A DNA stretch of 57,669 nucleotides from an uncultured Erysipelotrichaceae bacterium (GCA_947649125.1 CANSQL010000009.1:1-57669), one strand, 5' to 3'. Counted from the first letter of the stretch, positions 12,654-57,519 are shown. Made by a program: numbers and translations. Notes: generated by a model from the sequence alone, not told the origin.

Positions 12654-12957
12654 ATTCAAACTGATAACGGTACTGAAATTACAAGTCGTTTAAGAAGTGA
12701 TAAGATTATTCTCTTTGAAGTAAAACTGGAATTCATGAATATAAAGTATCGCCCCATTCGTCCTGTTGCTTCAAGACATAACGGAAAGGTGGAATCATAG
12801 AGAAGATCAGAAAAGATTACATAACTTAAACAGTTTTATTTTCAATGCCCCTCATAAACAACTCAAAAAAATATCTAAAAAAAACAATCATCATCCTATC
12901 CATCCTCTTGGTTATTATCTCCCATACATGATTTTTTTTGACTTCTTTAACGTATAA
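12654..12957 (+). pseudogene. Decayed rve-type (IS481/IS3-like) transposase fragment
   Basis: A first frame from 12654 reads IQTDNGTE, then IKYRPIRP and SRHNGKVES before a stop: the second Asp (TDNG) and Glu (GKVE) of the DDE integrase core. After a small deletion the next frame continues with HREDQKRLHNLNSF and HPIHPLGYYLP, as in the C-terminal part of these transposases, to 12957. No N-terminal half and no clear terminal repeats are visible. It is a relic only. Confidence 0.75.
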
Positions 12958-13006: not shown

Positions 13007-13035
13007 TTGAAAACCACGCTTGTTTATAATATAAT
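13007..13035 (+). promoter_or_regulatory. Promoter of the nucleoside hydrolase-ECF operon
   Basis: TTGAAA (13007-13012), 17-bp spacer, TATAAT (13030-13035). Transcription would start at about 13042, right at the first stem of the riboswitch-like leader. Confidence 0.65.
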
Positions 13036-13043
13036 CTTAAAGA

Positions 13044-13083
13044 ACCGGTTTCAAAGCCTCCCGGTATAATCATAGGCAAGGTT
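13044..13083 (+). promoter_or_regulatory. preQ1-I-like riboswitch aptamer (H-type pseudoknot)
   Basis: P1 is ACCGG (13044-13048) with CCGGT (13061-13065). The loop contains GCCT (13056-13059), followed by a single C at 13060. The tail after P1 is AT-rich (13066-13073) and then presents AGGC (13074-13077), which pairs with GCCT as P2. This small pseudoknot, with a lone C between P2 and P1, is the layout of preQ1 class I riboswitches, where a loop C pairs with the ligand. The bases AGGCAAGGTT (13074-13083) can instead pair over 10 positions with 13105-13114, the 5' arm of the terminator (two G-U), giving a mutually exclusive antiterminator. Ligand binding should therefore cause termination. The assignment rests on fold and context. 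Confidence 0.6.
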
Positions 13084-13104
13084 TCAAAGTATGTGTATAT
13101 TAAT

Positions 13105-13132
13105 AGCCTTGTCTTTAAAGACAAGGCTTTTT
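13105..13132 (+). terminator. Leader terminator (expression platform of the riboswitch)
   Basis: AGCCTTGTCTTTAAAGACAAGGCT (13105-13128) is fully self-complementary and runs into T5, 20 bp before the hydrolase ATG. A strong terminator directly ahead of a gene is typical of an attenuated leader. Confidence 0.85.
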
Positions 13133-13152
13133 AATAAAGAAAAGAGGTCAGT

Positions 13153-14133
13153 ATGAAACGAAAGATTATCATTGACTGTGATCCCGGAATAGATGACAGC
13201 TTGGCATTAATGCTGGCATTGAGCTCTGATGATATCGAGGTAATAGGTATTACTATCGTTTCCGGAAATACACCTGTACAAATGGGCTTTGAAAATGCGA
13301 AAAAAGTATTAAAGCATATGCAGCGTTTAGATATTCCCATTTATATCGGTGCAGCTGTACCACTTACGAAAGAATATGTCAATGCGCTTGACACGCATGG
13401 GAAAGATGGCTTGGGCGAAAGTTTTCTGCCTGAGGTAGATGGCTATCAACAAGATAAAGATGCAGTATCCTTTCTCATTGAAACACTGAAAAAAGAGCAT
13501 TGTTCTGTCATTGCGCTTGGACCTTTAACTAACATTGCCCAAGTCATTAGGAAGGATCCGACAGCTTTCGCATGTATCGATCAGCTGATTTCAATGGGCG
13601 GTAATTTTCGCTCCCACGGAAACTGTTCCCCTGTTGCGGAATACAATTACTGGGAAGATCCGGACGGTGCCGCACTTGTATTTCAATACTCAGCAAAAAT
13701 ACAGAAACAAATTCATATGATTGGTTTAGATGTTACAAGAAAAATAGTATTGACACCGAATTTACTATCGTATATCGAGCATCTTCATTCATATCACGGT
13801 ACTTTCATCAAGCAAATTACCAAATTTTATTTTAAGTTTCATTGGGAGTGGGAGCATATCATCGGCTGTGTTATTAATGATCCGTTAGCGATGGCGTTTT
13901 TCATACAGCCACAGCTTTGTGCCGGTTTTGCCGCCTATGTAGAGATTGTAACCGACGGTGCTGCACGAGGTCAGTCTATCGTTGATGAATATGGTTTCTA
14001 TAAGAAAAAGGCAAACGCATATGTATATCATCAAGTAGACACTTTTGCTTTTTATCATTTGTTTTTTGAACGATTATTCCAATGTTCAAAAGCTGAAATT
14101 GCCTATCTTGATAAATTGATTGTAAAGGAGTAA
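13153..14133 (+). CDS. Nucleoside hydrolase, candidate queuosine hydrolase
   Basis: 326 aa of the inosine/uridine-preferring nucleoside hydrolase fold. The calcium/ribose motif DCDPGIDD (Asp8, 10, 14, 15), HGKDGLG, the GPLTNIA threonine and AEYNYWEDPDGAA (Glu and Asn contacting ribose) are present. The usual His just before the last calcium Asp (HD in inosine-type enzymes, proposed leaving-group acid) is Asn here (NDPLA, Asn242). The ATG at 13153 follows AGAGGT. The ECF S-component follows 5 bp after the stop. With the preQ1-like leader and the nearby TGT fusion, release of queuine from the nucleoside queuosine (as reported for QueK in Clostridioides difficile) is a plausible role. The base specificity is inferred. 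Confidence 0.8.
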   Translation: MKRKIIIDCDPGIDDSLALMLALSSDDIEVIGITIVSGNTPVQMGFENAKKVLKHMQRLDIPIYIGAAVPLTKEYVNALDTHGKDGLGESFLPEVDGYQQDKDAVSFLIETLKKEHCSVIALGPLTNIAQVIRKDPTAFACIDQLISMGGNFRSHGNCSPVAEYNYWEDPDGAALVFQYSAKIQKQIHMIGLDVTRKIVLTPNLLSYIEHLHSYHGTFIKQITKFYFKFHWEWEHIIGCVINDPLAMAFFIQPQLCAGFAAYVEIVTDGAARGQSIVDEYGFYKKKANAYVYHQVDTFAFYHLFFERLFQCSKAEIAYLDKLIVKE

Positions 14134-14138
14134 AGTTT

Positions 14139-14678
14139 ATGAAACATTCATTAAGTGTATATCAAATATGTCTTATCGCATTCGCAATCGTATTAAATTT
14201 GGTCGGTGCACAAATTGCTTTATTACTGCAATTACCGATTTATTTAGACAGCATCGGCACTTGTTTGCTTGCTTACGCACTGGGACCTATTTACGCTGTG
14301 CTGCCCGGTTTATTCAGTTCTGTAATCAACACAATGTTAGGTGATGCCTACGCACTTTATTACGCACCGGTCGGAATTTTACTGGGGTTCTTATACGGCT
14401 ATGCATGGAATCATTTTCTGAAAGGAAAAGAGCGCTTGCTCATCGCCGCTTTGTTCATAAGTATTCCTACTTCGCTGTTAAGTGCATGTATTACCGCTTA
14501 CTTATTTGGTGGGATTACCTCTTCCGGTTCGACATACATCGTTCAGCTTTTGGCGCACACACCGTTGGGTTTAACAATCAGCTGTTTTATCGTTCAATTT
14601 ATCACCGATTATTTGGATCGTTTACTTGCTCTCATGTTAGTAAAACAATTTAAACAGCGAATAAAAATATCGAAATAA
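14139..14678 (+). CDS. ECF transporter S-component, candidate queuosine/queuine uptake
   Basis: 179 aa with five or six membrane helices, a PIYLDSIGTCLLAYALGP segment and APVGILLGFLYGY, as in ECF-type substrate-binding S subunits. No A, A' or T component is nearby, so it would use a shared group II energising module located elsewhere. It is translationally close to the nucleoside hydrolase, and the leader suggests regulation by preQ1 or a related deazapurine. This fits ECF-type transporters of the QrtT/QueT kind known for queuosine precursors. Which member it belongs to cannot be decided from sequence alone. Confidence 0.75.
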   Translation: MKHSLSVYQICLIAFAIVLNLVGAQIALLLQLPIYLDSIGTCLLAYALGPIYAVLPGLFSSVINTMLGDAYALYYAPVGILLGFLYGYAWNHFLKGKERLLIAALFISIPTSLLSACITAYLFGGITSSGSTYIVQLLAHTPLGLTISCFIVQFITDYLDRLLALMLVKQFKQRIKISK

Positions 14679-14688
14679 ATCTTTCCTA

Positions 14689-15366
14689 TTATATAGATAA
14701 AACCTCTAAATATTCACAAACACTTTCAGTTAACAGTTTCGCTATAGCCTGTTGATAAGAAGGCTGCATCAATTGACTGCGATCATTTGTATTTGATAAA
14801 AAGCCGCATTCCACCAATACCCCCATAGGCTTCGTCTCATTCAAAATATAATAATCACCCGGCTTTGTATGCTTATCTGTTTGGTTTAATACATTCATGC
14901 GCTTTTGAATCATATCGGCAAAGTTCTTAGAGGTATCGCTTTGCTTCTGATAAAACACTTGTCCGCCGTGTATCGCTACATTAGGATAGGCATTTAAATG
15001 AATACTGATAAACAAATCTACTTGTTTGGCGTTAATTATATTTGCACGCTTTTTCATATCCTCTTTTTTGCGATTACTTGCGCCCTCACTTGCTAAATCA
15101 TATGCGCCGTCTCTTGTGAGAAGCACACTCGCTCCTTTGGTTTCCAGCTCCCTTTTCAGCTGCTTGGAAATCGCAAGATTGATTTGTGCTTCTTTTACGC
15201 CTTCTTTTTGTGCGCCTTCATCTTTTCCGCCGTGTCCCGCATCAACAACGATTACGACACCGTCTAACGGTAAACTCTTTGTTTGCACAAGGGCATGAAT
15301 TTGAATTACTGCACCAAACAGGAAAGCACAGGATAAAGCGATGATCCAATAATACTTTTTTTTCAT
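14689..15366 (-). CDS. cwlD: N-acetylmuramoyl-L-alanine amidase (CwlD-like, Amidase_3)
   Basis: 225 aa, with a signal anchor at residues 5-25 and then the zinc amidase domain. Zinc ligands are His45 (DAGHGG), Glu59 (VKEAQINL) and His123 (SIHLNA), and the catalytic Glu is Glu186 (VECGFLSN). It would cleave the amide between MurNAc and L-Ala in peptidoglycan outside the membrane. It ends 10 bp from the convergent ECF gene, so it is not part of the salvage operon. The cwlD name is by similarity of size and architecture; a sporulation role is not implied. Confidence 0.85.
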   Translation of the reverse strand: MKKKYYWIIALSCAFLFGAVIQIHALVQTKSLPLDGVVIVVDAGHGGKDEGAQKEGVKEAQINLAISKQLKRELETKGASVLLTRDGAYDLASEGASNRKKEDMKKRANIINAKQVDLFISIHLNAYPNVAIHGGQVFYQKQSDTSKNFADMIQKRMNVLNQTDKHTKPGDYYILNETKPMGVLVECGFLSNTNDRSQLMQPSYQQAIAKLLTESVCEYLEVLSI

Positions 15367-15516
15367 AAAATCACCTACCTATATGTATGCTGAAAGAATT
15401 ATATTTATGACTGAAAAGTATTTTATCGGTTTTCAAACTATTGTACTGAAGCATCACAGATATCTTATTATAAATATCATCTGTTTTTTATTATTCTAAA
15501 TCAAATCAGTTTATGT

Positions 15517-15522
15517 TATAAT
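15517..15522 (+). promoter_or_regulatory. -10 box directly ahead of the transporter-TGT fusion (leaderless start?)
   Basis: TATAAT ends 6 bp before the ATG at 15529, and no ribosome site is seen between them. Transcription would start at or next to the A of ATG, so the mRNA may be leaderless. The -35 region (about 15494) is poor. Confidence 0.5.
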
Positions 15523-15528
15523 ACTCCC

Positions 15529-17379
15529 ATGTCAAATACAAAACAAAAACTTTTGATTTTTTTTGCGGCAATCTCCGCAGGTACCCTATTGATATCAAAT
15601 CTCGCAGCGGTAAAGCTGTGGGACTTTTTCGGCATTGCCGTTGACGGCGGTGTCGTTGTCTTTCCGCTTACCTATATTATCGGTGATTTGATCGTTGAGT
15701 GCTACGGCAAAAAAATTGCGAACAGCATTATTTTTTCCGGCTTTGCAGTCAATGTAGCCGCAGTAATTGTCTTTTGTTCAATCACGGCATTATCGGATAA
15801 TCCCGGCAATATGCAGACCTCAATGCAGGATATCTTAGGATTTACACCGCGTATTATCGTTGCTTCCTTAATTGCCTATGTAAGCTCTAATTTATTAAAC
15901 AACGCTGTGTTCATGAAAATGAAAAGCGGAAACAGCGTATTTGCGAACAGCTTTATTGCGCGGGCCTTGGCTTCCTCGGCATTTGCGCATTTGATTGATT
16001 CCGCTATCTTTGAAACCATCGCCTTTATCGGTGTTTTAAGCTTTCATGAGTTTTTGATGCAGGCCGCCTTCGCTTACCTGTTAGGCTTCGGCTTTGAGCT
16101 TGTATTAGCGCCGCTTGAGGCTTGGATCGCAGGCAAGGTAAAACGCTGTATGAAGGAGTATCAAAACAACAATCGCTTCAGCTTTGAGATTACGGATAAA
16201 ATTCCCGGAACGCTCGGTCGTGCCGGTATCATTCATACACCGCACGGTGATATCAAAACCCCGGCCTTTATGAGTGTCGGGACAAAGGGTGAGGTTCGCT
16301 TCCTTACGATGGAAGAGCTGAAAAGCATCAATGCACAGGCAATGCTCAGCAACGGCTATCATCTGCGCAATGCTTCAAAGGAAATCGCGAAACAAGGCGG
16401 CTTGGCCGAATGGTCCAAATGGAGAGGTCCTACGCTGACCGATTCCGGCGGTTTTCAAATCATGTCGCTCGGCTCCGGCTGCGGTAAGGTTGTCAGCATG
16501 GAGCGCGAAAGAGAAGTTACCAATGCCGAGATCAAGGATCGCTTGGCTCATGTCAAAGAAGACGGGGTACATTTCAAGGATCCGTTCACAAATCAAGATG
16601 ACTTTATCGGTCCCGAGGAATCGATGCAGATTCAATGCCGCATCGGTGCCGATATTCATATGGCATATGATGAGCTGACCTCTTTGGCAGACAGCTATGA
16701 ATACAATGTCGAAGCCTTGGCAAGAACCGAGCGCTGGGCGCTTCGCTCCTTAAAGGAGCACAAAAAAAGATGTGACAGCTTAGGCTATCATCAAGCACTG
16801 TACGGCGTGATTCAAGGCGGACGTTGGGAGGACCTGCGCCGTTCCACCTGTAAGAAATTCGCTCAGATGGATTTTGACGGCTATGGCTTGGGAGGCGCCT
16901 TCCTAAAGGAAAGCCTCGGTGAGATTCTGCGTTGGTGCAACGAGGAACTGCCGGAGCACAAGCCCCGCCATTTGCTTGGCTTATCACATCCCGATGATAT
17001 TTTAATCGGTATTGAACAGGGTGCGGATACGTTTGACTGCGTTGCCCCTACAAGAGAGGCGCGTCACGGTAAAATTTATACACGACACGGAAATTTCAAT
17101 CTTGCGAAGGCAATCTATGCTTCCGATGAGAAAACATTGGATTCCCCTTGCGACTGTCCGACCTGTCAAGCAGGCTGGACAAGAGGACAGCTTCGTGCCC
17201 TAATGAAATCTCAGGACAATGAGGAACGTCGTCAATATTATAAGCTCGCGACCTTGCATAACCTTCGCTTTATCATTCGTTTGACCGAGGAAGCACGCAC
17301 CGCAATTCTAAACGGTGCCTTCCGTGAATATAAAGAAGCATTTATGAAGGATTATTATCATGATACAAGGACTGAATAA
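15529..17379 (+). CDS. tgt: YhhQ-type queuosine-precursor transporter fused to tRNA-guanine transglycosylase
   Basis: 616 aa in one frame. Residues about 1-205 form a six-helix membrane domain of the YhhQ/QPTR family (NLAAVKLWDFFG, FPLTYIIGDLIVECYG). Residues about 218-610 form a TGT. Its active-site Asp is in LTDSGGFQIMSLG (about residue 305), the nucleophile region is TFDCVAPTREARHG (about 502), and the zinc site is CDCPTC (about 541) plus the His in ATLHNLRF. TGT exchanges guanine 34 of tRNA(GUN) for a deazapurine. Two pocket stretches differ from the preQ1-type bacterial enzyme: DELT instead of DECT, and GGAFLKES where E. coli has GGLAVGEP. About 20 extra residues follow MSLG. The fusion would place base insertion at the uptake site. 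Function is well supported; queuine specificity is inference. Confidence 0.88.
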   Translation: MSNTKQKLLIFFAAISAGTLLISNLAAVKLWDFFGIAVDGGVVVFPLTYIIGDLIVECYGKKIANSIIFSGFAVNVAAVIVFCSITALSDNPGNMQTSMQDILGFTPRIIVASLIAYVSSNLLNNAVFMKMKSGNSVFANSFIARALASSAFAHLIDSAIFETIAFIGVLSFHEFLMQAAFAYLLGFGFELVLAPLEAWIAGKVKRCMKEYQNNNRFSFEITDKIPGTLGRAGIIHTPHGDIKTPAFMSVGTKGEVRFLTMEELKSINAQAMLSNGYHLRNASKEIAKQGGLAEWSKWRGPTLTDSGGFQIMSLGSGCGKVVSMEREREVTNAEIKDRLAHVKEDGVHFKDPFTNQDDFIGPEESMQIQCRIGADIHMAYDELTSLADSYEYNVEALARTERWALRSLKEHKKRCDSLGYHQALYGVIQGGRWEDLRRSTCKKFAQMDFDGYGLGGAFLKESLGEILRWCNEELPEHKPRHLLGLSHPDDILIGIEQGADTFDCVAPTREARHGKIYTRHGNFNLAKAIYASDEKTLDSPCDCPTCQAGWTRGQLRALMKSQDNEERRQYYKLATLHNLRFIIRLTEEARTAILNGAFREYKEAFMKDYYHDTRTE

Positions 17380-51100: not shown

Positions 51101-51122
51101 ATACACATACGAGGTGATGTGT

Positions 51123-52352
51123 GTGATTCTAGAGACATATTTAAAAAACAATAACAAAAATTTACATCAAATGCATTTGATAACGGGAATACCAGAAACT
51201 ACCGTGCGTGATATTAATAAACGAGATCTTTCTAAATGGTCCCTCAGCTATTATGACGCTATCGCAAAAACTGTCGGCAAGGAACGTTCAGTAATCATGC
51301 AGGAACTTGAGGATTTAAAAAAATCACAGAGCTATTCACCTATTTTCGGTAAATATGATCTTGAAAATCGTAGATATATAGGCAATAAAAATAAATTATT
51401 AAATTGGATCGCTGATTTAATCTGTGAAAACACTAACGGATCAACTTTCTTTGACGTATTTGCAGGAACCGGAGTTGTAACTAAAAAGATGCTGGAAAAA
51501 TATGATTCTTTTATAATAAATGATTTCCTTTATTCCAACAATGTTATTTACAAAGCTTTTTTCGGCAAAGGAAAATATAATGTAAACAAACTAAAATCTA
51601 TTCAGAAGCAATACAATACTATTATTGATAATAACAGCGATGATGAGTATTTTTCTAATAATTTCGGCGGTAAATTTTTTAGTATAAATGATGCAAAAAA
51701 AATAGGAGAAATCCGAACTTTAATAGAAAAAGATAATTCATTAAAGCAACGAGAAAAAGACATTCTAATAGCCTCTTTATTATATTCTGTAGATAAAATC
51801 GCTAACACGGTCGGACACTACGATGCCTATCGAAAAAAAACAATCTTAAAAGATAAATTTGTTTTTGAATTGATAAACCCAATAAAAACCTCTAACAAAA
51901 ATATTAAGATATTCAGAAAAGACGCAAATGACCTTGTTCGTAATGTAACAGCCGATATTGCCTTTATTGATCCTCCTTATAATTCCAGACAATATTCTCG
52001 ATTCTATCACGTTCTTGAGGGTATTGCTAAATGGAATAAACCTAAATTGGAGGGAATAGCCATGAAGCCTCCTATTGAGAATATGAGTGAATACAGCCGC
52101 TCTGGGGCACCGCAAGTATTCGATGATTTAATTCAAAATCTTAATGTTAAATATATTGTTGTGACCTATAATAATACATATCACTCTAAAAGCTCAAGCT
52201 CAAAAAATAAAATTACGCATAATGAAATATTAAATTCCCTTAATAAAGTTGGGAAAACCAAATCTTTTGAAATTCCCTTTCAATTTTTCAATGCAGGTAA
52301 GACCAATTTAATAGACCATAAAGAATTTGTATTTATCACGGAGGTCAGGTAA
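51123..52352 (+). CDS. DAM-class N6-adenine methyltransferase with N-terminal HTH
   Basis: 409 aa from GTG at 51123 (GAGGTGAT just upstream); the in-frame GTG at 51114 overlaps that site. Residues 1-65 are an XRE-like helix-turn-helix (LHQMHLITGIPETTVRDINKRDLSKWSLSYYDAIAKTVG). The methyltransferase part has a start motif RRYIGNKNKLL, SAM motif FDVFAGTGVV and catalytic DPPYNSRQYS. It resembles D12-class enzymes of the M.FokI kind. It should methylate adenine in one strand of the recognition site. The HTH suggests it may also repress its own promoter through the nested palindrome. Confidence 0.88.
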   Translation: MILETYLKNNNKNLHQMHLITGIPETTVRDINKRDLSKWSLSYYDAIAKTVGKERSVIMQELEDLKKSQSYSPIFGKYDLENRRYIGNKNKLLNWIADLICENTNGSTFFDVFAGTGVVTKKMLEKYDSFIINDFLYSNNVIYKAFFGKGKYNVNKLKSIQKQYNTIIDNNSDDEYFSNNFGGKFFSINDAKKIGEIRTLIEKDNSLKQREKDILIASLLYSVDKIANTVGHYDAYRKKTILKDKFVFELINPIKTSNKNIKIFRKDANDLVRNVTADIAFIDPPYNSRQYSRFYHVLEGIAKWNKPKLEGIAMKPPIENMSEYSRSGAPQVFDDLIQNLNVKYIVVTYNNTYHSKSSSSKNKITHNEILNSLNKVGKTKSFEIPFQFFNAGKTNLIDHKEFVFITEVR

Positions 52353-52397
52353 TATGCATAAAAATTTTCAAAGCTTTGGGGCACAGGAAAAACAATT

Positions 52398-53321
52398 ATG
52401 AAAAAATCTCAAAGAACAATACGATCTCCTTTATTCTATGTCGGTGACAAATATAAACTGATGCCACAACTGAAAAATTTATTCCCACAAAATATAAAAA
52501 CATTTTATGATGTATTTTGTGGAGGCGGCAGTGCCTCTCTTAATATTGTAGCTGAGAATTATGTTTTAAATGATATCAACGATAGGGTTATTGAACTTCA
52601 TCAATTTTTACAAGAACAATCAAATGATATTGAACAATTTATTGCAGGAATGCATGAAATTATAAATAAATATGGGCTCAGCCTTTCTGAGCTTGGAAAA
52701 AATAATAAAATCGAAAATCTTAAAAAGGTTTATATTAAAACATATTTTTCCAAATATAACAAAGAGGCCTATTTGAATTTAAGAACTGATTACAATAAAA
52801 ATCAGTCAAAAACAGAATTATTATATCTATTATTGATTTACGGGTTTAACCATATGATACGTTTTAACGCTCAAGGACAATTCAATCTGCCAGTTGGTAA
52901 TGTTGATTGGAATAAAAATGTTAGTGCTGCATTAAGAAACTATGCATCTTGGATTACCCATAACAAAATAAAATTATCTCAGGGATTGGACTTTGAAGCA
53001 TTCGTTTTAAGCCAAAATTTTAGAAAAGGTGATTTTATCTATTTTGATCCACCTTATCTGATAACTTTCAGCGATTATAATAAGTTATGGAACGAGGATG
53101 AGGAATATCGTCTATACGCTCTCTTAGATAAGTTATCAGAGGATGGAATACATTGGGGTTTATCCAACATGCTTTATCATAAAGAAAAAACAAATACTAT
53201 TTTACAGCTCTGGGCAAAAAAGTATCAAAAATATGATATTGAAAGCAATTATATATCCCGATTTGACAATAGCATAAAGAAACAAAGTAAAGAACTTTTT
53301 GTTACAAATTATAACGGTTGA
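52398..53321 (+). CDS. DAM-class N6-adenine methyltransferase
   Basis: 307 aa. SPLFYVGDKYKLMPQL, SAM motif YDVFCGGGSASLNI and catalytic YFDPPYLIT mark a Dam/DpnM-type enzyme. Lacking the extra HTH, it is the second methyltransferase of the operon. Two methyltransferases for one nuclease indicate an asymmetric recognition sequence with different strands to protect. The ATG follows CAGGAAAAAC. Confidence 0.9.
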   Translation: MKKSQRTIRSPLFYVGDKYKLMPQLKNLFPQNIKTFYDVFCGGGSASLNIVAENYVLNDINDRVIELHQFLQEQSNDIEQFIAGMHEIINKYGLSLSELGKNNKIENLKKVYIKTYFSKYNKEAYLNLRTDYNKNQSKTELLYLLLIYGFNHMIRFNAQGQFNLPVGNVDWNKNVSAALRNYASWITHNKIKLSQGLDFEAFVLSQNFRKGDFIYFDPPYLITFSDYNKLWNEDEEYRLYALLDKLSEDGIHWGLSNMLYHKEKTNTILQLWAKKYQKYDIESNYISRFDNSIKKQSKELFVTNYNG

Positions 53322-53338
53322 AAAGAAGAGGAGCAGAT

Positions 53339-54961
53339 ATGACTAGACAAAAAAAATACGAAAGAAAGCAGTTATCATTTTCAACAACTATGAGAAGTCC
53401 GGAAAGAATTGCTGATTTTGTAGAAAGCTTATTAGATTATGAAGGAAAAGCTTTAACTGATAACTTGATACATCAAATCATCATCGATTGGATTATAAAG
53501 AAACTTATTTATGGCAAAACTGCATTAGATGCATACAAACATTTAAAAGAAATTTATTACAACGAAGATCTAACTTATACACCTGATCAAGCAGAATTTA
53601 TATATACGTATATTGAAAAAAATACAAAGGGACATAAAGAAGCTGGCTTTACAAAAGGATGGCCATCACGATTTGACACTTATTTAAGGTTACCAATGGA
53701 ATTTGGATTCATATATTATAAGATGAATGAACCGCTTGAGATTTCAGAAACCGGTAAATTAATTGTTCAGGCGAGTCAAACGGATGATTTAATGCTTGAC
53801 AAAGCAAACAGTTCTTTTGTCAAAGTATCAGATATATTTTTAAATGCTCTAGTTAAGTATCAAACAAATAATCCATTTCGACGCAATGAAATAGAAAATG
53901 CACCGTTTGTATTATTCTTACAAACTATCTTAAAGCTTAAGGAAGGTTTTGAATGGAAGAAATCCGGTATATATAGAAGTGAAATTCCTTTCATCATTTG
54001 TTGGTGGAATGCCGATGCTTATGCCTTAGCTGAATATATCAATAACTTTAGGCTTGCTTATGGCCTAAAGCCCAGCGATGAAATTGTTTACGAGCATTGC
54101 TTAGAATTATTAGGTTCTCAAAATCGCAAAAGATTTAAAATGAAACAAATAACAAAAGAGGGTGTTGATGATTTCATTAGGAAATTAAGGTCTACCGGGG
54201 TAATTTCATTACGAGGCTACGGTAGACTGATTGACATCAACCTCTTTGATATTGATAGAGTAAATTATATTATAAAAAATTATTCTAACTATCCGATTAT
54301 TGAAGATGAAAAAAAATATTATCAATATATGGGGGAAATTGATACTAAACTTGTACAAACTCATACAATAGTTTCATCGGATCGTATCGCCAATCTTAAA
54401 CAAACTACATTAAAAACTTGGGCACAGAATATGAATACAGAGGATATTATCAAAGAATTTAAATCTTTGACAAGTTCTAAAGGCAGTCAGCATCCAATAT
54501 TAAAATTTATTAACGCACCGACCAGATTCGAGTTCTTGATGAGTATAGCGTTAAAGAAACAATTTCCTGAACTTGATATTCAGCCTAATTACCCTATAGA
54601 TGACGAAGGAATGCCTACATCAACAGCTCGCGGAGGCGTTGGGGATATAGAAATATATGGTATGAAAATCGATGTTTTGGTAGAGGTCACTATGATGCGA
54701 AATAAAAGTCAATCTGTAAATGAGATACCAGGAATTGCCCGTCATCTAAATGAATTCCAGCATATCAATAGAAAAACTGTATATTCTTTATTTGTAGCAC
54801 CGAATATTCATGCGGATACACAATTTATGATTGAATTTGCAAAATCAAGATATAATGCCGATATTTACCCATATACTATTGAACAATTTATTAAAGTATG
54901 GAAAAACAGCAAAGAAATAGCTGATTTTACTGTTCATGTTCTTAATAATAGTATTAGTTAA
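53339..54961 (+). CDS. AlwI-like type IIS restriction endonuclease
   Basis: 540 aa from the ATG at 53339 (GAGGAG upstream). The N-terminal DNA-recognition part is followed by a PD-(D/E)XK-like core near residues 434-450: GDIEIYGMKIDVLVEVTMMRN has the Asp and the Glu-x-Thr pair. The order and size fit the AlwI/MlyI/PleI/BstNBI group, which bind short asymmetric sites (GGATC or GAGTC) and cut outside them. Family assignment is from recall of these proteins. Third gene of the operon, 17 bp after the second methyltransferase. Confidence 0.75.
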   Translation: MTRQKKYERKQLSFSTTMRSPERIADFVESLLDYEGKALTDNLIHQIIIDWIIKKLIYGKTALDAYKHLKEIYYNEDLTYTPDQAEFIYTYIEKNTKGHKEAGFTKGWPSRFDTYLRLPMEFGFIYYKMNEPLEISETGKLIVQASQTDDLMLDKANSSFVKVSDIFLNALVKYQTNNPFRRNEIENAPFVLFLQTILKLKEGFEWKKSGIYRSEIPFIICWWNADAYALAEYINNFRLAYGLKPSDEIVYEHCLELLGSQNRKRFKMKQITKEGVDDFIRKLRSTGVISLRGYGRLIDINLFDIDRVNYIIKNYSNYPIIEDEKKYYQYMGEIDTKLVQTHTIVSSDRIANLKQTTLKTWAQNMNTEDIIKEFKSLTSSKGSQHPILKFINAPTRFEFLMSIALKKQFPELDIQPNYPIDDEGMPTSTARGGVGDIEIYGMKIDVLVEVTMMRNKSQSVNEIPGIARHLNEFQHINRKTVYSLFVAPNIHADTQFMIEFAKSRYNADIYPYTIEQFIKVWKNSKEIADFTVHVLNNSIS

Positions 54962-56110: not shown

Positions 56111-57382
56111 CTAGTTCTCCTTTTTATTTATCATCGGTTTTAAAGCCGGAATTGCCCCATATTTACCAAGCATATAGTTTTTTTCATAATTTTCATCTTT
56201 TCGTATTTTAATACCGTTCTCATCATTGAAATCTGCTAAAGAATATAATTGAGAAGCACCTGTATCTTCCTTTTCAACAAACCATATTTCATCCCTTCTC
56301 AACAAATCGTTTTCCAACGCCCATGTATCATGTGTTGTAAAAATAAGCTGTGCATGACTTTTATTCATTTCCGGATTTAAAAAACAGAGTATAAAATTCC
56401 TAACCAAAAGAGGATGCAGACGAGAATTAAGCTCATCGATAAAAAACACACCGCCTGTTTCCATTATCTTCATCAATCTCGGATATAGAGAAAACATCTT
56501 CAATGTGCCTGCAGACTCCTCTCTCAATGGTATTGATACAAGTTCATCACTGCCATTAATTTTATGAAGCGCATTTATATTCATTTGTCTTCTGCCTTCA
56601 TCATCTTTATATTTATTCACTTGAAAGCCAACGATTGATTCATCGAATGTTGAAATAAACTCAACAACCTGTGCCCTTACAGTAGGATCATCGGCAAAGC
56701 TCTTAGGAATGAATCTGGACAACACAAGATTTTCCACAGGATTACCATAGTTCACAACCTCATGCTTCATGAACCAATCTCTTACGCACTTTAATTCATC
56801 GATTTTTAACTTAGCTCCGAGTGAAACAATCAGCACTTCTTTTTCCAAAGCAGTCTCAATATTATCATGGCAATTCTTTGGCAATCTACATAACTCCAAA
56901 ATATCTTCATCTCTGTTGCGATAAAAAACCGATTTAAATTCTCCTCTTGATGATTTAGCCTTTGTATTCAGCCATTCCTCTTTTACACCGTTGACGTCAA
57001 CACTAAAGCCATAATTATATGTTTTAAATTTATCTTGTTCGTCTCCGATAAAATAAACCTCAAATACAGATTCAGCATCTTTACTGTTATTATCGAATAA
57101 GAACGGAGTTGGTTTCGGGAATTGACTCTTTTCATCATTGATCAGGGAATCTCCGCCGAATGCAAAGGAACTGCAAACATAGGTGCACATATAACGAAAT
57201 GCCAAATATACATTAGATTTTCCGCCTGCATTTGCTCCGAAAATGGCTGCTGTCGGCAAAAGCTTTTCTAATCCGACGGTAATGATGTGAGATTTATATT
57301 CAGTCATCTTAGTCGCAGATAAATCTAAAATTGTATCATCCCTAAATGACCTAAAGTTCTTAAAGCTGAATTGTATTAGCAT
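56111..57382 (-). CDS. AAA (AAA_15/21) ABC-type ATPase, defence-associated kind
   Basis: 423 aa from the ATG at 57382 (AGGAGG upstream). It begins LIQFSFKNFRSFRDD, the usual RecF/OLD-like N-terminus. Walker A is GANAGGKS (residues 49-56, Ala in place of the common N-G-x-G-K). Walker B is FFIDELNSRLHP (about 312), followed by IFTTHD, the His switch. No TOPRIM nuclease domain is attached. Stand-alone ATPases of this group are common in phage-defence islands, together with a separate effector. Here the next gene is the RES protein. Confidence 0.85.
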   Translation of the reverse strand: MLIQFSFKNFRSFRDDTILDLSATKMTEYKSHIITVGLEKLLPTAAIFGANAGGKSNVYLAFRYMCTYVCSSFAFGGDSLINDEKSQFPKPTPFLFDNNSKDAESVFEVYFIGDEQDKFKTYNYGFSVDVNGVKEEWLNTKAKSSRGEFKSVFYRNRDEDILELCRLPKNCHDNIETALEKEVLIVSLGAKLKIDELKCVRDWFMKHEVVNYGNPVENLVLSRFIPKSFADDPTVRAQVVEFISTFDESIVGFQVNKYKDDEGRRQMNINALHKINGSDELVSIPLREESAGTLKMFSLYPRLMKIMETGGVFFIDELNSRLHPLLVRNFILCFLNPEMNKSHAQLIFTTHDTWALENDLLRRDEIWFVEKEDTGASQLYSLADFNDENGIKIRKDENYEKNYMLGKYGAIPALKPMINKKEN

Positions 57383-57519
57383 ATAAAATATCCTCCTATA
57401 TATATTATAGCTTGATTTCAATCAAAATCAACATTTATTTGAGGGATTTTCTCAATTAGAAGTACAAAATCAAGGTATGACCCAGTCCTTAATTATGATA
57501 CAAGAGATAATCGAGATAG

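Follow-up and report, generated by a model that had tools for sequence, protein, structure and literature searches.

A 57,669-nucleotide stretch of DNA from an uncultured Erysipelotrichaceae bacterium (GCA_947649125.1 CANSQL010000009.1:1-57669; hereafter the window) contains, between positions 13,007 and 17,379, genes for a nucleoside hydrolase, for an energy-coupling factor (ECF) S-component and for a queuosine precursor transporter (QPTR) domain fused to a tRNA-guanine transglycosylase (TGT). The reading we favor, with moderate confidence, is that these genes serve the salvage of queuosine and queuine, that the TGT inserts queuine directly into tRNA, and that the hydrolase and S-component genes are controlled by a transcription-OFF riboswitch derived from the class I prequeuosine-1 (preQ1-I) riboswitches, with queuine as its probable ligand. 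We regard as evenly balanced the fuller proposal that the 34-nucleotide leader is a natural queuine riboswitch that arose from preQ1-I in Erysipelotrichaceae losing QueA and QueH, such that riboswitch, TGT pocket and salvage genes have all switched from preQ1 to queuine. No description of a natural queuine riboswitch was found in the open-access literature searched. Queuine is a gut-made micronutrient needed by animals; if the proposal is true, a tiny aptamer has changed its ligand in concert with the pocket of an enzyme in its pathway, and provides a genetically encoded queuine sensor. Should the ligand still be preQ1, an element shared across the clade yet below the Rfam threshold would add a fourth sequence form to class I, and through the hydrolase, the transporters and the TGT direct salvage of queuine can be put to the test in common gut Erysipelotrichaceae.

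The leader is probably a clade-specific, divergent candidate riboswitch descended from preQ1-I. In a preliminary description of this DNA it was called a preQ1-I-like terminator leader; the terminator is present and the relatives place the leader in the preQ1-I kind, but it is not a standard preQ1-I element and is missed by Rfam. The PreQ1 family (RF00522) has no match to the window leader at the gathering score or at E<=10, and a whole-genome search with the same family at E<=1 did not detect it; other Rfam families gave chance matches only, such as an enterococcal small RNA at E 0.01. At the same site in relatives RF00522 reaches at most some 26 bits against a cut-off of 39 (26.3 in the best relative, L014; 19.1 in L019). 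A wholly new riboswitch class was considered, and was dropped once these matches were seen and the published type I bases (PMC8752633, PMC11625349) were found to fit. The ligand bases of type I, known from the structure of the Carnobacterium antarcticum element (PMC8752633), are U6, U7, U16, C17, A30 and C31.

Like type I elements, the variant is an H-type pseudoknot of about 34 nucleotides with a 5-bp P1 stem topped by GG/CC and a tail that starts with AUAA, and it precedes genes for queuosine salvage, the platform here being a terminator. The UU after the P1 5' strand (U6/U7), the UC before the P1 3' strand (U16/C17) and the G5-C18 floor are kept and are invariant in 22 distinct variant sequences. 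The differences lie in the tail, where AUAAUMAUAGG stands in place of AUAAAAAACUAAGG, and in the loop, where the variable part precedes an invariant CCU rather than following a P2 strand. A shorter, rewritten segment thereby takes the place of the one that holds the alpha-site base A30 and the beta-site base C31, with these two bases changed or shifted in every member; the A-rich preQ1-I tail, in which UA(A)GG comes after A30 and C31, is absent from all variants, and the canonical elements of the sister family in the same order have the tail AUAAAAAACUAAG. R1, a model derived from the variant, gives variants 52-64 bits and canonical elements no more than 21.5, which indicates that they are two separate populations.

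The variant was recognized by searching 295 genomes of the same order for the S-component, which yielded 30 loci, 25 of them with an adjoining hydrolase gene whose start is in view or nearly so. Alignment of the upstream DNA gives the consensus ACYGG-UUYN(4-9)CCUC-CCRGU-AUAAUMAUAGG before the hydrolase gene in all but the most distant loci. Among the 22 distinct sequences 22 columns are invariant; P1 is paired in all 22, with one compensatory change (U-A to C-G), and the CCU/AGG core of P2 is standard-paired in all 22, with a fourth pair in six (A-U or G-C). With R1 at E below 1e-4 the element is found in 26 of the 295 genomes, all Erysipelotrichaceae, and of 395 sampled genomes of the class only six have it, again of this family. 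A scan of 84,980 species with the exact pattern found 25 stretches; the 20 with a P1 5' strand are all in Erysipelotrichaceae-type records or unnamed Bacillota, and the five matches outside the family (L034-L037, L039), which lack this strand, were taken as chance. The genera include Amedibacillus, Merdibacter, Traorella, Faecalitalea, Longicatena, Faecalicoccus, Floccifex, Absicoccus and others. The hydrolase gene is next downstream in nearly all genomes, and two genomes (G290, G163) have a second copy of the variant 0.8 kb upstream, preceding a PF02592-family (QPTR) gene for which the queuosine precursor transporter is the top NCBIfam match. In one Erysipelotrichaceae metagenome-assembled genome (L049, 7821-7859) the variant stands directly before an S-component-like frame, with no hydrolase in view.

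The anatomy of the leader, together with common practice in class I, suggests how it would act. The tail AUAGGC(AA) has two possible partners, the loop CCU (forming P2) and the 5' arm of the terminator. With ligand bound, the pseudoknot would keep AUAGG(C) in P2, the terminator would form and transcription would stop; with ligand absent, the tail would pair with the terminator arm as an antiterminator and the operon would be read. Across 21 leaders the complementarity of tail and terminator scores 15.9, compared with 11.1 when the downstream DNA is shuffled (standard deviation 2.1 per sequence) and 14.9 when tails are swapped between relatives, and the small excess over swapped tails means that the score reflects conserved complementarity more than covariation. 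The RNA of positions 13025-13135 folds more stably than its shuffles (z -2.3), and a strong promoter-like site ends 8 bases before the leader, which is rich in inverted repeats, with the transcript expected to start just 5' of the pseudoknot.

The host appears neither to make preQ1 nor to convert it to queuosine. No match to QueC, QueD or QueF was found in the whole genome (98.7% complete) with phage Dp-1 queries, for which there is no positive control in these genomes, and the QueE query gave only weak matches to the generic radical-SAM part. QueA, QueG and QueH were not found in the whole genome either, although the absence of QueG is uninformative because QueA-positive relatives use QueH. 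Lacking QueA, QueG and QueH, the cell could not convert preQ1 to queuosine. The preliminary description had noted the lack of queC, D, E and F in the window and suggested looking for these, queA and queG across the genome; apart from the generic QueE matches, the wider search agrees, and no preQ1 synthesis pathway surfaced. The same loss marks the clade: QueA is present in none of the 26 genomes with the variant and in 225 of the 269 others of the order (Fisher 9e-19 by genome and 1e-7 by genus, uncorrected for shared ancestry). In a set of 40 genomes, QueA and QueH are both absent from all 25 with the hydrolase-S-component pair; of the 15 others, 14 carry both, along with a TGT of a different type.

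The TGT itself, judged by sequence, is of an Actinobacteria-like type with a rewritten pocket. It is present in a single copy in its genome, and among plasmid records its closest match is an Arthrobacter TGT (49% identity, pocket GGALE---KE). Cys158 and Val233 are the positions that decide between preQ1 and queuine (PMC3660597), and both are replaced here: the TGTs of variant genomes have Leu158 and the loop GGAFL---KE, whereas those of QueA-positive relatives have Cys158 and GGTSVGEPK, and the PF01702 scores are 331-362 and 527-561 bits, respectively. The domain assignments of the fusion are secure (PF02592, E 5.7e-33; PF01702, E 1e-105; TIGR00697 'queuosine precursor transporter', 95.2 bits against a cut-off of 50.95). 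QPTR and TGT are likewise fused in relatives (L073, L075, L078, L079, L084, L085), the fusion thus spanning several genera of the family, and the TGT is separate in close relatives, such that fusion or fission has occurred repeatedly. Fusions of these families in the same domain order were reported previously (PMC11130926) and nothing essential sets this one apart, beyond its occurrence in an Erysipelotrichaceae genus and a few relatives. The nearest precedent for direct use of queuine is Chlamydia trachomatis, which likewise has a TGT and a QPTR and lacks QueA and QueG/H (PMC11130926, PMC11570991); the window differs in its TGT pocket and in having, behind the candidate riboswitch, genes for a hydrolase and an ECF S-component as well. 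Direct insertion of queuine into tRNA is thus our best reading of the sequences, and of the route proposed in the preliminary description (import, splitting to the base, direct insertion) it is this last step to which the missing QueC/D/F, QueA, QueG and QueH and the replaced preQ1 pocket point, as indirect evidence.

Because the variant keeps the bases that read a guanine-like face and the N9 edge, and regulates genes for queuosine precursors, its ligand is likely a 7-deazaguanine. Queuine is the most probable one, since the cells seem to insert it into tRNA and could use preQ1 there only in unmodified form, and since the rewriting of the ligand-side tail coincides exactly with the clade in which QueA and QueH were lost. 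The main rival ligand is preQ1, because its binding is shared by the three known class I types despite their differing consensus sequences (PMC11625349). The leader would then be a degenerate or alternative preQ1-I subtype that still binds preQ1, but as a single ligand instead of the stacked pair of type I, and the kept alpha-site C17, U6 and G5-C18 floor fit this, as does the acceptance of preQ1 by several transporters of queuosine precursors (PMC11130926). We think it rather unlikely, in view of genomes with neither QueA nor QueH to use preQ1, the alteration of the ligand-reading A30 and C31 throughout the variant, and the canonical preQ1-I elements retained at the orthologous operons of bacteria beyond this clade. 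A nucleoside as ligand, either queuosine or a different 7-deazaguanine nucleoside on which the hydrolase would act, is very unlikely: the hydrolase is indeed the first gene of the regulated operon, and an S-component of Clostridioides difficile carries queuosine besides queuine and preQ1 (PMC11130926), but the variant keeps U6, by which class I pockets recognize the free base at its N9 edge (PMC11625349) and where a ribose would clash, and an OFF switch responding to the operon's own substrate would be counterproductive.

Several observations weigh against queuine as the ligand and against its direct insertion. The published signature of queuine-type TGTs, GG[LS][AS]G (PMC11570991), is absent from this TGT, which has GGAFLKE at that place, and Bartonella, which lacks QueA, still inserts preQ1 (PMC11570991). 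The association of the variant with loss of QueA may stem from one ancestor and so does not count as many independent events, and P2, being almost without variation, offers little covariation. A single genome, G154, has neither QueA nor QueH and nonetheless carries a canonical-like preQ1-I between its hydrolase and S-component genes, which may be an intermediate or a counter-example. This element (L128, contig C37, 1253-1299) is of type I, scores 38.7 bits, just below the cut-off, and has an apparent translational platform.

The hydrolase and the S-component were both correctly named in the preliminary description, with the S-component falling below its family cut-offs (NF045596 'CD3073 family', 76.8 bits against 180, E 1.5e-21; PF12822, 28.4 against 30.7, E 2e-6). 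The two are tied to queuosine because canonical preQ1-I precedes their orthologues elsewhere: the S-component orthologue stands alone behind it in several QueA-positive genomes of the sister family, and plasmids of Enterococcus faecalis and Lacticaseibacillus paracasei have pairs of hydrolase and S-component (52% and 41-44% identical) behind it (47.1 and 45.5 bits). These plasmid-borne pairs (L. paracasei and E. faecalis; L148 5921-7523 and L149 5876-7520) represent mobile queuosine salvage, and that of L. paracasei is on a conjugative plasmid with IS5 transposases on both flanks. By family and operon context, the plasmid orthologues assign the pair to the queK-qrtT kind known from C. difficile, where queK-qrtT-queL is under preQ1-I control (PMC11477304). 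We infer for the hydrolase a QueK-like role, freeing queuine from queuosine, and for the S-component a QrtT-like role in uptake of queuosine or queuine.

General nucleoside salvage by the pair, with the TGT as an unrelated neighbor, is highly improbable. Among characterized enzymes the hydrolase does score best to RihA, RihB and RihC, and the TGT gene is separated by the amidase gene and is usually elsewhere; set against this are the canonical preQ1-I elements before orthologues of the pair and of the S-component, the variant before a QPTR gene, and the absence of QueA from every variant genome. Indirect salvage, in which a QueL-type queuine lyase yields preQ1 as in C. difficile, would account for the shared gene pair, but we consider it remote, as no third gene follows the pair in the window and preQ1 in tRNA could not return to queuosine without QueA and QueH. 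Common to the C. difficile and window loci are a host without preQ1 synthesis and a class I-like pseudoknot riboswitch that precedes genes for an IUNH-family hydrolase and an ECF S-component (PMC11477304, PMC11130926). They differ in that the window pair has no adjacent queL, its genome has no QueA or QueH, its riboswitch is altered and its queuine is proposed to be used directly, not indirectly. In the direct route that we prefer, the S-component, with an ECF core presumably encoded elsewhere, and the QPTR domain would import queuosine and/or queuine, the hydrolase would release queuine, the altered TGT would put it straight into tRNA, and the locus as a whole would take up and reuse queuosine.

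The features of the locus are listed in Table 1. The S-component gene begins six bases on from the end of the hydrolase gene. The YhhQ-type transporter-TGT fusion seen in the preliminary description is present, but its picture of one compact locus including the TGT does not hold: the pair and the TGT gene do not form a single operon, because the opposite-strand amidase gene intervenes and because in relatives the TGT gene is usually elsewhere, lying near the pair in just one when 14-18 kb of surroundings are considered. The salvage role it gave the hydrolase and S-component gains a link to queuosine from the preQ1-I elements of their orthologues, with the TGT outside their unit.

Table 1. Features of the candidate queuosine/queuine salvage locus (window positions; base numbering of the C. 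antarcticum element in the loop)
Feature	Position	Strand	Remarks
Promoter, sigma-70-type TTGAAA-N17-TATAAT	13007-13035	+	11/12 consensus matches, top site of region; promoter-like sites overall about as many as in shuffles
Variant aptamer, 34-nt H-type pseudoknot	13044-13077	+	conserved across 22 distinct relatives; model R1 57.5 bits
Leader P1	13044-13048/13061-13065	+	ACCGG/CCGGU
Leader loop UUUCAAAGCCUC	13049-13060	+	U6,U7 = 13049-13050; U16 = 13059; C17 = 13060
Leader P2	13056-13059/13074-13077	+	GCCU/AGGC
Leader tail AUAAUCAUAGGC	13066-13077	+	
Predicted antiterminator	13075-13113	+	GGCAAGG 13075-13081 (overlaps P2 3' strand) pairs with CCUUGUC 13107-13113 (terminator 5' arm)
Intrinsic terminator	13105-13132	+	stem-loop 13105-13128 plus U tract; perfect 10-bp stem, 4-nt loop
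Nucleoside hydrolase, IUNH family	13153-14133	+	PF01156, E 2.5e-87
ECF S-component, CD3073-like	14139-14678	+	NF045596 and PF12822, both below family cut-off
Amidase gene (Amidase_3)	14689-15366	-	between hydrolase-S-component pair and TGT gene
QPTR-TGT fusion	15529-17379	+	QPTR (Vut_1) domain ~15643-16122; TGT domain ~16216-17358
TGT pocket Asp156-Glu-Leu158 (Z. mobilis numbering)	16669-16677	+	Leu replaces Cys158 of preQ1-type TGT
TGT pocket loop GGAFLKE	16891-16911	+	3 residues shorter than GGTSVGEPK of QueA-positive relatives; Val233 region rewritten

Elsewhere in the window, positions 12660-12800, on the 5' side of the promoter, resemble the remnant of an integrase-core transposase (TDNGTEITSRL...RPVASRHNGKVES). 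A Type II restriction-modification set with a D12-class adenine methyltransferase and an AlwI-type endonuclease is located at 51114-54961, together with an AAA_21 ATPase at 56111-57421.

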